A stretch of DNA of 64,000 bases from Ignisphaera aggregans DSM 17230 (lineage in GTDB: Archaea; Thermoproteota; Thermoprotei_A; Sulfolobales; Ignisphaeraceae). This document shows, one piece after another, positions 3,968 to 32,108 of the stretch. The notes beneath the pieces were generated by a model. That model did not search any database. It saw only the letters and a list, made by a program, of their open reading frames with translations, and had not been told where the DNA came from. Location: the NCBI GenBank assembly GCA_000145985.1, contig CP002098.1, forward strand, positions 1,406,501 through 1,470,500, written 5' to 3'. Each line of letters begins with the position of its first letter. The stretch's first letter is position 1. The position numbers and the translations under genes are program-made.

Positions 3968-5683
3968 ATGGTGCCATCAATGTTAGAGGATATAGCACTG
4001 AAATATTATCGAATGTTAGGGATACCATCTAGAATCTCAAGACATGTAAAGTGGATTTATCCAGTAACTATTGTGACCGTTATTGGAATAGAATTGTTAA
4101 TACTTTTTGGCAAGGGGGTTGCACTTAAGAACATTATTAATTTGGTAATGCTCCATATAATATTATCATCATTATTACCTATCATTATTAAATTAATGGT
4201 ATCCTATATCAATTTAAGACAGGCACTTAACACATCTTTTTTCCTGATATTACTTGGCGTGCTTCTAGAGATTATCGGTGTTTTTGCTAAGATCTATGGT
4301 GTTATGTATGTTGCAATACCTTTACTTGGAGTACTAATTTTAAAAGGAATGTCTAATGATAATAAAAACATCTTTGTATTGATTATATATTCTATACTAG
4401 CAGAAATAATATTTACTATTATAGTTGATTTTTCTCTTATACAAAGAATTGCAAGAATTTGTTTATTATTATTTTCTATTTCAGTATCAATATTCTTTAT
4501 ATTAACTTTATCTAAAAGAGGAAAGGATATTGATGTATTTAGATTTTCATCAGCTTGGGCTAAATTTATATTAACAGGATTTGAAAATGATATGGAGGAT
4601 GTGTTTGAATCTTTTGGTACAGAAAGAGAAATTGATATAAGGATGTTGTTATTTCAAAGAGACAAGGATAATATTGCTATTGTAATCCCAGGAATACATT
4701 TTGGTCCTTTTAGAACTATTGGGAGTACCCTTGCACCCTATCTTATAGAGGAAGAGCTCAAAAAATACAATATAAAGTCTATAATCTTCCATGGTGCAGG
4801 ATCTCATGAAAGAAATTTAGTTTCTAAGAAAGAGATTAATAAGATAGTTAATGCTATTAGAGATTTACTTCAGAAACCAATGGAAAAAACATTTTTATAT
4901 GAACCATTTAGAGTATTTAATGGTTATCATGAAGCATTAGTATTACCTTCTTCAATGGTCTTGATAGCTATTTCTACACCTACTGTTGGAGGAGATGATA
5001 TACCTTATGGGGTTCAAGAACTTGCTGAAAAATATTCTAAGGTTTATGGATATGAAGATGCCGTAATAGTTGATTGTCATAATCTAGAAGGACCTATGAT
5101 AAGAGATCTTAGTAGATATAAAGACATAGTGATAGCAGCTATTTCAAAGCAGAGCAGACAGTGTTCCAGGGTCAGAATTGGTTATAGTGAAGATGAAGTA
5201 AGAGGATATGTACGAGGGCTCTGTAGTAACACTATCAAGGCTATGGCCATAGAATGCGATGGAAATGTATATTCTCTACTATATTTATATGGAAATAATG
5301 CTGATATTGGTGTTAGAGAAGCATTGCGACGTCTTGCACTTTCTCTAGGTTATAAAGATGCAGAAGTATTCACATTAGATGATCATACTTGTTCAGGTGT
5401 TGCTTTTGACTCTCCATACTATTCAGTTAGAATTAATGCATCATTACTAAGATCGGCTGAGAAAGTATTGAGGGAGGCTCTCACAGATCTTAAGGAAGCT
5501 ACAATTAGTTTTACTAAACATAGTATAAAGGTTAGAACCATGGGTGAAAAGATATATGAGTTATTAGAGCTTGCTAAGGTTATTGGAAGAGATGTATTAA
5601 ACTATTTAAAAACTACACTATTATTGCTATATAGTTCTGTAATAATATTAGCACTCTACGAACATTTTATATCTATTCAATAA
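3968..5683 (+). CDS. DUF2070 family archaeal membrane protein
   Basis: A 571-residue protein with about six to seven hydrophobic helices in the first 180 residues, a large soluble domain (about 200-530), and a C-terminal hydrophobic helix (about 547-566). The soluble part has the conserved DUF2070 sequences IPGIHFGPFRTIGS, FHGAGSHERNL and VDCHNLEG. The histidines, aspartates and glycine turns of these motifs suggest a metal-dependent or hydrolytic centre, but no activity is established. The family is found widely in archaea. The gene lies 93 bases upstream of cdvA, with a separate cdvA promoter between, so a link to cell division is only positional. A GTGATGA sequence before the start is not part of a C/D RNA because no D boxes follow. 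Confidence 0.85.
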   Translation: MVPSMLEDIALKYYRMLGIPSRISRHVKWIYPVTIVTVIGIELLILFGKGVALKNIINLVMLHIILSSLLPIIIKLMVSYINLRQALNTSFFLILLGVLLEIIGVFAKIYGVMYVAIPLLGVLILKGMSNDNKNIFVLIIYSILAEIIFTIIVDFSLIQRIARICLLLFSISVSIFFILTLSKRGKDIDVFRFSSAWAKFILTGFENDMEDVFESFGTEREIDIRMLLFQRDKDNIAIVIPGIHFGPFRTIGSTLAPYLIEEELKKYNIKSIIFHGAGSHERNLVSKKEINKIVNAIRDLLQKPMEKTFLYEPFRVFNGYHEALVLPSSMVLIAISTPTVGGDDIPYGVQELAEKYSKVYGYEDAVIVDCHNLEGPMIRDLSRYKDIVIAAISKQSRQCSRVRIGYSEDEVRGYVRGLCSNTIKAMAIECDGNVYSLLYLYGNNADIGVREALRRLALSLGYKDAEVFTLDDHTCSGVAFDSPYYSVRINASLLRSAEKVLREALTDLKEATISFTKHSIKVRTMGEKIYELLELAKVIGRDVLNYLKTTLLLLYSSVIILALYEHFISIQ

Positions 5684-30132: not shown

Positions 30133-30265
30133 TGCAATTCCCTGTTATCCTCTTGTGTAAAGAGAGAATATTAATTATTCTCCTTATATAGTGTAACACT
30201 CTTTCTCTATAAGTAGAGTATTATGTGTTGTAATAAGCTTATATATTCTCACCAGAATAATATCT

Positions 30266-30345
30266 CTGTGCCCCGGTTGCCCGTGTAAAAGGACCCCGTG
30301 TCCCGGGGCTATATGTGCACGGAGCGGGTCACCCCCGGCATCCCT
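30266..30345. ncRNA. GC-rich structured island, possible non-coding RNA
   Basis: About 80 very GC-rich bases in AT-rich surroundings, in the gap between two minus-strand genes. GCCCCGG (30270-30276) pairs perfectly with CCGGGGC (30303-30309), and CCCGTGT occurs twice between them. On the minus strand that stem is directly followed by ACA, as in H/ACA RNAs, but the interior does not form a convincing guide hairpin. No tRNA, SRP, RNase P or C/D features fit. Strand and class are uncertain. Confidence 0.4.
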
Positions 30346-30362
30346 ATAATTTTATCTATCTA

Positions 30363-31199
30363 CTATCTACAGATAAGAACTGTATCACCAGGTTCAGCAC
30401 ATAAGAGATGTTTAGCAGAACCCTTATTAACAGCTAGTTCAGCAAGCCAAAAACTATTCTCATATAGAACCAGTGTCCCCTCTGGATAAACTGAAAATAC
30501 CTCACCAATGACAGCATTATGCGATCTACATTTTGAGTATATAGTTACAGTATAGTTAAGACCTACTTCCAACATATCTAATATATCTTTAACACTAGAC
30601 GATAAAACAATATTTCCAAATTTATCTATTGTAAGAATCTTTAGCTCAATACAATTCTCTTTAATCTTCCTAATATACCTTCCTCTCTCTAGCCTTACCA
30701 AAGTATTCTGATCAATTTCTCTACCTATCAACTCTATAGGAATACCACATGCAATATGTGCTGCTATAGGAGCAAATATGTCCCTTCCATGGAAAGAACG
30801 AGAAACAGGAACTCTAAACAATTTCTGATTTTCAATTAGAAAAACTTTCTTTATACCATCATCCTCTGCAGCCATAGTCATCAACCCGTTATCAGGTCCT
30901 ATAAATATGTAGTTATTTGTCAAAATAGCTATAGGTCTTCTAGAACTTCCGACACCAGGATCAACAACACATACAAAGATAGCTCCCCTGGGGAAATATT
31001 TATATGAAACATAGAGGACAAAAGCACCATGCTCTATATCAAAACTACGAACACTATGAGTCAAGTCAATAACTTTAACCTTTGGACAAATACTCAATAT
31101 AACACCTTTCATCATACCTACATATGGATCTTCTATACCAAAATCAGTTAGGAGCACTATAACATCTGAGGTAAAATTCATTATACTCTCCCAACACAT
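30363..31199 (-). CDS. SAM hydrolase of the DUF62 (SAM hydroxide adenosyltransferase) family
   Basis: Members hydrolyse S-adenosylmethionine to adenosine and methionine and share the fold of the chlorinase/fluorinase enzymes. Support: VIVLLTDFGIEDPYVGMMKG, IDLTHSVRSFDIEHGAFVL, VDPGVGSSRRP, IGPDNGLM and SFHGRDIFAP, with the conserved Asp and Arg-Asp-x-His-type triad region. Length 278 (272 if the ATG at 31181 is used) is normal. A TATA-like TATATAATC on the minus strand near 31230 can drive it. It is flanked by a GC-rich island on one side and a 47-bp inverted repeat on the other. Confidence 0.88.
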   Translation of the reverse strand: MCWESIMNFTSDVIVLLTDFGIEDPYVGMMKGVILSICPKVKVIDLTHSVRSFDIEHGAFVLYVSYKYFPRGAIFVCVVDPGVGSSRRPIAILTNNYIFIGPDNGLMTMAAEDDGIKKVFLIENQKLFRVPVSRSFHGRDIFAPIAAHIACGIPIELIGREIDQNTLVRLERGRYIRKIKENCIELKILTIDKFGNIVLSSSVKDILDMLEVGLNYTVTIYSKCRSHNAVIGEVFSVYPEGTLVLYENSFWLAELAVNKGSAKHLLCAEPGDTVLICR

Positions 31200-31286
31200 T
31201 AAATATGCTTTAGCTGTACATAGAGATTATATAGCTAGGGAGAAAAGCATATATGTCAATAAATCCATCTTGAGAAAAGTATAGCC

Positions 31287-31430
31287 CCCTCTAGGGGTAT
31301 AAATAGTATATGTCTAGTATATGATAACCATACCAGCGGATAAGGACCCCAAGGGCTTTAACACCCTTGAGGCCCCTCCACCAGTATGGTTATCATATAC
31401 TAGACATATACTATTTATACCCCTAGAGGG
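31287..31430. repeat. Perfect 47-bp inverted repeat with 50-base loop
   Basis: Arm 31287-31333 is the exact reverse complement of 31384-31430 (47 of 47). Each arm holds GGGGTATAAATAG, a strong BRE/TATA-like promoter, so two identical promoters point toward each other through the loop. The loop (31334-31383) is GC-rich and contains a nested CAAGGG/CCCTTG stem. No target-site duplication was seen at the outer ends. It lies between divergent genes (SAM hydrolase and a nuclease-like protein). It may be a MITE-like element, a duplicated promoter or a structured RNA gene; nothing decides. Confidence 0.9.
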
Positions 31431-31623
31431 TTTGGCCCAAACTATATATTTCTGTCCTGTATTAGATTAAGGTTATGTTGCTTAAGTTATGGTGGAAGTA
31501 TGTAGTAATACCTACATCATGTTTGTCTATGGTTCAATGTTAGTACTACTTAGTATCAGTTTTTAAATATGTTTAAATATTCGATAATAGGTTAACCATG
31601 TGATATTTTAGGCTCTATTTTCT
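31431..31623. other. AT-rich upstream region of the nuclease-like gene
   Basis: Contains ATGTAG-6-CTACAT (31498-31515), a small inverted repeat, and TATA-like GTTTAAATAT at 31571-31580, which would start transcription about 20 bases before the ATG at 31624. No gene seen. Confidence 0.4.
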
Positions 31624-32088
31624 ATGGGTTTTAGGTGTAGGTATCTTGTGATTAAAGAGAATCAATTATTATCATTATTTGTTAGGAAGATGAAAATGTT
31701 GGGGCTGGATGTATTTACTAATGTTTATCTTCATAATACTGAAATTGATGCTGTTGTATTTGAGTATATAGATAGTAGGAGACCCTATGTTCATCTATTT
31801 GAAGTCAAAGCTAGAGCAAAATTAAAGGTTATTGACCAAATAGAGAGGAGGAGAACATTAGCAGACTATCTTTATGTAGTTATTCCATACAATATATATC
31901 CTTGGATTATTAGGAGAGTTAGAGATGATATTGGCATTGTAATATATATTAACGGTGAGTTCTATTTATTTAGAAAACCTAGATATATTGGAAATGGAGA
32001 TAAATTTTTAAGTATTGCTAGAATAGATAAGATAAAAAATAGTGATGTGATTATAGCGCTGAGCTATGATGATAGCGAATTGCGCTGA
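31624..32088 (+). CDS. PD-(D/E)XK nuclease-like protein
   Basis: A 154-residue protein with the restriction-endonuclease-like catalytic pattern: TEIDAVVFEY (Asp near residue 42) followed by VHLFEVKARAKLKVIDQIERR (Glu-x-Lys near residues 59-61). Small stand-alone proteins of this kind are conserved in crenarchaea, and some function in DNA repair or defence, but no activity is assigned to this one. The ATG at 31624 is preceded by a TATA box; it stands 193 bases from the 47-bp inverted repeat. Convergent with peroxiredoxin. Confidence 0.7.
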   Translation: MGFRCRYLVIKENQLLSLFVRKMKMLGLDVFTNVYLHNTEIDAVVFEYIDSRRPYVHLFEVKARAKLKVIDQIERRRTLADYLYVVIPYNIYPWIIRRVRDDIGIVIYINGEFYLFRKPRYIGNGDKFLSIARIDKIKNSDVIIALSYDDSELR

Positions 32089-32108
32089 TATCTTCTAATG
32101 TTTATTGG

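Follow-up and report, generated by a model that had tools for sequence, protein, structure and literature searches.

A predicted long-hairpin RNA gene linked to a PD-(D/E)XK nuclease gene in Ignisphaera aggregans and related archaea

What is encoded by a perfect inverted repeat that lies between two divergent genes (30363-31199, minus strand, and 31624-32088, plus strand) of Ignisphaera aggregans, and does it have to do with either of its neighbors? The window, as we call the whole stretch of 64,000 nucleotides that was analyzed, corresponds to bases 1406501-1470500 of a genome consisting of a single contig of 1,875,953 bases. An earlier note on this DNA described two perfect 47-base arms, a loop with a CAAGGG/CCCTTG stem of its own, the string GGGGTATAAATAG in each arm, and the position between divergent genes, and in these descriptive points it proved accurate: 31287-31333 is the perfect reverse complement of 31384-31430 (47/47), a spacer of 50 bases (31334-31383) separates the two, the inner stem lies at 31350-31355/31364-31369, and both arms carry GGGGTATAAATAG. 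When 0.8 Mb of the same genome was added to the window as background for ranking by arm score, the repeat came out on top of the resulting 864 kb with a score of 52, the runner-up (28.2) being a low-complexity coding repeat. The repeat is real, lies far beyond chance, and is by a wide margin the strongest hairpin of these 864 kb, with a folding energy 17.6 standard deviations below that of shuffled sequences. The runner-up of the scanned part, at G000:C1:496616-496735, is unrelated to the window hairpin and encodes a low-complexity Thr/Val-rich linker in a 705-aa solute-binding-like protein; within the window itself, an inverted repeat at 4361-4653 ranks second (arm score, 23.4).

The repeat is best read as encoding a structural long-hairpin RNA of ~165 bases, predicted on the minus strand and accompanied by the following features.

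31270-31443, minus strand: predicted long-hairpin ncRNA gene, from about 31443 (5') to about 31275 (3'), 72 bp in the RNA
31287-31333, minus strand: outer 3' arm of the hairpin, with perfect pairing
31384-31430, minus strand: outer 5' arm of the hairpin, with perfect pairing
31334-31383, minus strand: DNA spacer, forming a wobble-rich inner duplex and the apical loop in the RNA
31350-31369, minus strand: CAAGGGUGUUAAAGCCCUUG, which contains the apical loop GUUAAA
31431-31438, minus strand: conserved 5' basal motif of the RNA, GGGCCAAA (family: GGSGCCARA)
31281-31286, minus strand: conserved 3' basal motif of the RNA, GGCTAT (family: GGCKARRCC)
31275-31278, minus strand: U-run UUUU 3' of the basal motif, possible terminator
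31458-31474, minus strand: putative TATA region CTTAATCTAATACA, weak here and clearer in relatives
31501-31516, no strand assigned: TGTAGTAATACCTACA, near-palindromic upstream element
31624-32088, plus strand: UPF0102/YraN-like PD-(D/E)XK nuclease gene, 154 aa, start codon uncertain

Evidence for an RNA comes from the mismatches between the arms. Similarly laid out hairpins are present in 20 genomes, which belong to two families of one archaeal order. The orientation of each hairpin was fixed from its apex and end motifs before mismatches were counted, and its arms were aligned with a score that disregarded wobble pairing. For the 20 hairpins together, the strand bearing the apex AGGGCTTTA shows 123 A.C versus 38 G.T arm mismatches, which on the complementary strand read as 123 G.U versus 38 A.C (P of 1e-11, a nominal value given that the sequences are related). 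This is the pattern to be expected of an RNA that is read from the G.U-rich strand and has to pair, and because a double-stranded DNA cruciform would give no such strand bias, the pattern disfavors that structure. As exceptions, G158 shows the opposite bias and G154 and G155 show little. Likewise, 19 of the 20 hairpins are more stable on the RNA strand, by a mean of 17 kcal/mol, with values of -127.3 (minus strand) versus -104.9 kcal/mol (other strand) for the window hairpin. The minus-strand RNA of the window forms 72 base pairs (45 to 74 across the family), the DNA spacer pairing almost fully in the RNA strand. Family-wide, the share of G.U among the pairs is 17.6% for the inner half versus 6.8% for the outer half. 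Since the RNA would thus be paired with hardly a break, in contrast to the DNA palindrome with its broken center, cruciform extrusion should be limited, a conceivable benefit. The suggestion that the locus might hold an RNA gene is plausible, and the strand-biased mismatches and folding energies favor one strand over the complementary RNAs, transcribed from both sides, that had been envisaged with it.

Besides strand-specific tolerance of G-U, compensatory changes, also a feature of structured RNAs, were found between close relatives. Of nine pairs that differ between G005 and G006, five have changed in both bases, three differ via wobble, and one is broken; between G008 and G009 the corresponding changes number 7, 10, and 5, and among G005 to G007 double changes affect 22 of 69 pairs. 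For G005 and G006 (loci L064 and L063), four of five double-changed outer-arm pairs are clustered within 6 bases, the adjacent gene has a dS of 0.08, and flank identity is 93%. In this pair of genomes, selection may be joined by a template switch or by conversion between the arms. No Rfam family matched the window element at gathering score, and ARAGORN detected no tRNA there. A known RNA was thus rejected, the best sub-threshold Rfam match (mir-4776, 33.5 bits where the cut-off is 97) being a resemblance in shape only.

The ends of the RNA were placed from conserved motifs, TATA spacing, and the U-run; a covariance-model match spans 31278-31439. Members of the family share the layout 5'-GGSGCCARA-(long arm)-loop-(arm)-GGCKARRCC-3', with variants, and in the clearest of them a three-base bulge on either strand flanks a short basal GCC/GGC helix. 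TTTRGCCC-like ends that recur near both arms, considered as candidate target-site duplications, vary by subgroup and fit this basal motif, and U-rich sequence is common downstream of the 3' motif. An AT-rich peak lies 33 to 44 nt upstream of the first base of the arm and about 25 to 30 nt upstream of the likely start GGSGCC, the place at which an archaeal TATA box would be expected. Several members carry clear TATA-like boxes (CGTATATATC, CATATATAATC, and AAAGATATAC). In place of the two promoters that had been suggested inside the repeat, one is predicted to lie outside it, near 31458-31474, and to point leftward. Further upstream, most members have GTATTAY/RTAATAC versions of the element TGTAGTAATACCTACA. 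A role of TGTAGTAATACCTACA as the operator of a regulon was considered and dropped, as the near matches inspected were mostly coding and revealed no regulon.

How is this RNA distributed? The inner stem of the window spacer recurs in congeneric genomes, where it always sits in the middle of a further long inverted repeat; the arms of these repeats have essentially no sequence in common with those of the window repeat. Across the family, the arm sequences have almost nothing in common between species, and what is kept is the pairing, the basal motif, and the apical loop, the latter being conserved within genomes of family f1 and differing between subgroups. Apex-pattern matches outside f1 that were folded proved to be coding sequence or to lack a comparable hairpin, except for G148 of family f2, which was reached by this pattern and is a true member. 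A covariance model was seeded with three members, because a MAFFT alignment of nine misaligned the arms; on the loci in hand it recovered the window copy and nothing else in the 864 kb. It missed a known locus in a genome-wide search, and its genome-wide negatives were therefore set aside.

The gene at 31624-32088 has a homologue alongside all of the first seven hairpin examples (7/7). A search of 214 genomes of the order with its product yielded 21 close homologues, 20 of which adjoin a long hairpin; the most diverged one, in G011 (27% identity), has no hairpin beside its gene. Such a hairpin accompanies none of the distant homologues examined, 0/9 from the class search and 0/7 from the phylum search; several genomes in the survey are incomplete MAGs. 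The hairpin is located about 300 to 450 nt upstream of the nuclease gene in f1, where the gene lies on the opposite strand from the RNA. G148, G158, and G159 also have it upstream, in the reversed orientation, and in genus g59 it is found downstream, overlapping the final ~27 nt of the gene. These three arrangements are spread over several unrelated neighborhoods, one with SAM hydroxide adenosyltransferase and archaemetzincin genes (G000, G003, G004, G008, and G009) and other, differing ones (G001, G005 to G007, G013, G014, G148/G159, G158, and genus g59). A candidate second ncRNA, the CCGGGGGTGACCCGC element at 30214-30378 (minus strand), lies between the HTH and SAM hydroxide adenosyltransferase genes, and near copies adjoin the same gene in G003, G004, G008, and G009.

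The invariant residues, modeled fold, and low dN/dS of the product of 31624-32088 make it very probable that this protein is a PD-(D/E)XK nuclease that is active and under selection. The window protein itself has no Pfam match, while 11 of 18 members match UPF0102 (PF02021) weakly (best E value, 4.3e-4) and one matches Hjc. Residues invariant in the 18 sequences include E12, E40, D42, E60, K62, and Q72, so that invariant acidic residues and E-x-K, together with the helix-strand order, agree with the PD-(D/E)XK core. The AlphaFold model (pLDDT, 87.8) has 3dnx as its sole convincing PDB match (E value, 1.6e-5), followed by weak ones that include several nucleases. Ratios of dN to dS of 0.09 to 0.23 in four pairs indicate purifying selection on the gene. 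Its 3' end is overlapped by a likely C/D-box small RNA (32038-32093, plus strand) with the order TGATGTG, CTGA, TGATGA, CTGA, which several C/D families of Rfam match below threshold.

Taken together, comparison of sequences directly supports a hairpin family, RNA-type pairing specific to one strand, constant gene linkage, and purifying selection on the nuclease, and the identity of the RNA and its linkage to the nuclease gene appear well supported. Gene linkage alone is no proof that the nuclease binds the RNA. Because the linkage is constant through rearrangements, it argues for a joint function, and we infer that the RNA most likely serves the adjacent nuclease as a ligand or a regulator. 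Whether the repeat is an ncRNA gene with its own leftward promoter that forms a two-component module with the nuclease is, in our judgment, evenly balanced. With slightly less confidence than that, we tentatively propose a new archaeal RNA-protein module in which the 45- to 74-bp hairpin RNA would be a dedicated inhibitor, scaffold, or cofactor of the nuclease. The RNA would be transcribed leftward from its own promoter, starting at about 31443, and would fold into one near-perfect hairpin with a conserved bulged base and a subgroup-conserved apical loop. The nuclease, or its complex, might recognize the conserved base and/or the loop. Given that the arms are free in sequence while ends, loop, and length are fixed, the long duplex may act via shape and length rather than sequence, as a DNA-mimicking ligand, and the RNA could in this way restrain, stabilize, or position the nuclease.

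Possibly, the hairpin is an independent structural RNA, for instance one that binds polymerase or the ribosome, and its linkage to the nuclease gene is merely historical. An apparent promoter of its own and an orientation that is not fixed relative to the nuclease gene would suit such an RNA, but the linkage survives several neighborhoods and three arrangements, and the stretches scanned contain no unlinked copy, which makes this explanation improbable. Somewhat less probable still is a real RNA that serves as substrate, its duplex being cut by the nuclease or another RNase into small double-stranded RNAs. This idea is suggested by a near-perfect duplex of 45 to 74 bp adjoining a nuclease gene, yet, from general knowledge and the fold, DNA is the expected target of PD-(D/E)XK enzymes in this group, and with unconserved arms and no second strong match in the genome itself, no shared target is evident.

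The Hjc/UPF0102-like fold of the nuclease, together with perfect outer arms and an independence of position and orientation, could also indicate a DNA element that the nuclease binds or cuts as a cruciform or a single-strand hairpin, for self-regulation or mobility; a hairpin formed by one strand is a possible version of this. We think that this is quite unlikely in view of the strand-biased wobble pattern, which is unexpected for a double-stranded cruciform, the interruption of the palindrome at its center, and the single copy. Neither phage or plasmid records (for the hairpin) nor viral contigs (for the nuclease) gave a match, and a virus or plasmid origin was rejected on these grounds. Even less chance can be given to a cis-acting leader or attenuator of the neighboring gene. 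The minus-strand RNA does point at 30363-31199, whose start lies about 75 nt past the RNA 3' end, but the flanking genes on this side vary from genome to genome, in f1 the nuclease gene occupies the opposite strand, and in g59 the element is downstream of it. Finally, there is scarcely any chance that the repeat is a recently duplicated or MITE-like element or a pair of facing promoters, as the earlier note had proposed from its perfect, terminal-repeat-like arms with their TATA-like string: the search of related and own genomes that it called for shows different arms in relatives and a single copy at home, with no second strong match, and TATAAA is found in the arms of only 1 of 20 homologous hairpins, that of the window genome, being missing from those of the other 19, one of which has it in the apical loop.

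The RNA-and-nuclease pair thus remains our preferred reading. In the limited open-access literature searched, we found no description of such a pair. No conserved archaeal gene for so long and near-perfect a double-stranded RNA is known to us, nor is any such RNA paired with a PD-(D/E)XK nuclease, and to our knowledge the host organisms generally lack RNase III. The occurrence of the hairpin next to this one nuclease gene in 20 genomes points to a pair that was previously undescribed. If functional, it would represent a new way of controlling or guiding a nuclease by RNA shape, possibly with a role in defense or DNA repair. The test of G-U versus A-C in the arms is a simple discriminator between RNA hairpin and DNA palindrome that also names the strand and works without alignment between species.

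Among known systems, MITEs are likewise short noncoding inverted repeats, but the window element is single-copy, has arms that are unconserved between genomes, and has a fixed companion gene. With miRNA-type precursors it shares a long imperfect hairpin, a likeness in shape only (mir-4776 is below cut-off). Bacterial 6S RNA is a long hairpin of ~160 to 180 nt that acts by a shape mimicking DNA; in contrast, the window RNA is a continuous duplex without a central bubble, has no Rfam match, and is linked to a nuclease. The partner protein has the fold of UPF0102/YraN and archaeal Hjc, with weak matches to these families, for which we know of no RNA partner; unlike these nucleases at large, the hairpin is restricted to one clade of close nuclease homologues. 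Type III toxin-antitoxin systems (ToxIN, CptIN, and TenpIN) share with the window locus a structured RNA gene that directly adjoins a nuclease gene, and in both cases the RNA may act by its shape. In these systems, an endoribonuclease with a different fold cuts and binds an RNA built of tandem pseudoknots (PMC8860590, PMC5086642). The window locus falls outside this type, with a single hairpin, no direct repeats within the element, and no match to a ToxN/CptN/TenpN-type endoribonuclease in Pfam, NCBIfam, or PADLOC. It would instead be an archaeal combination of a single long duplex with a PD-(D/E)XK protein whose gene usually lies on the opposite strand.
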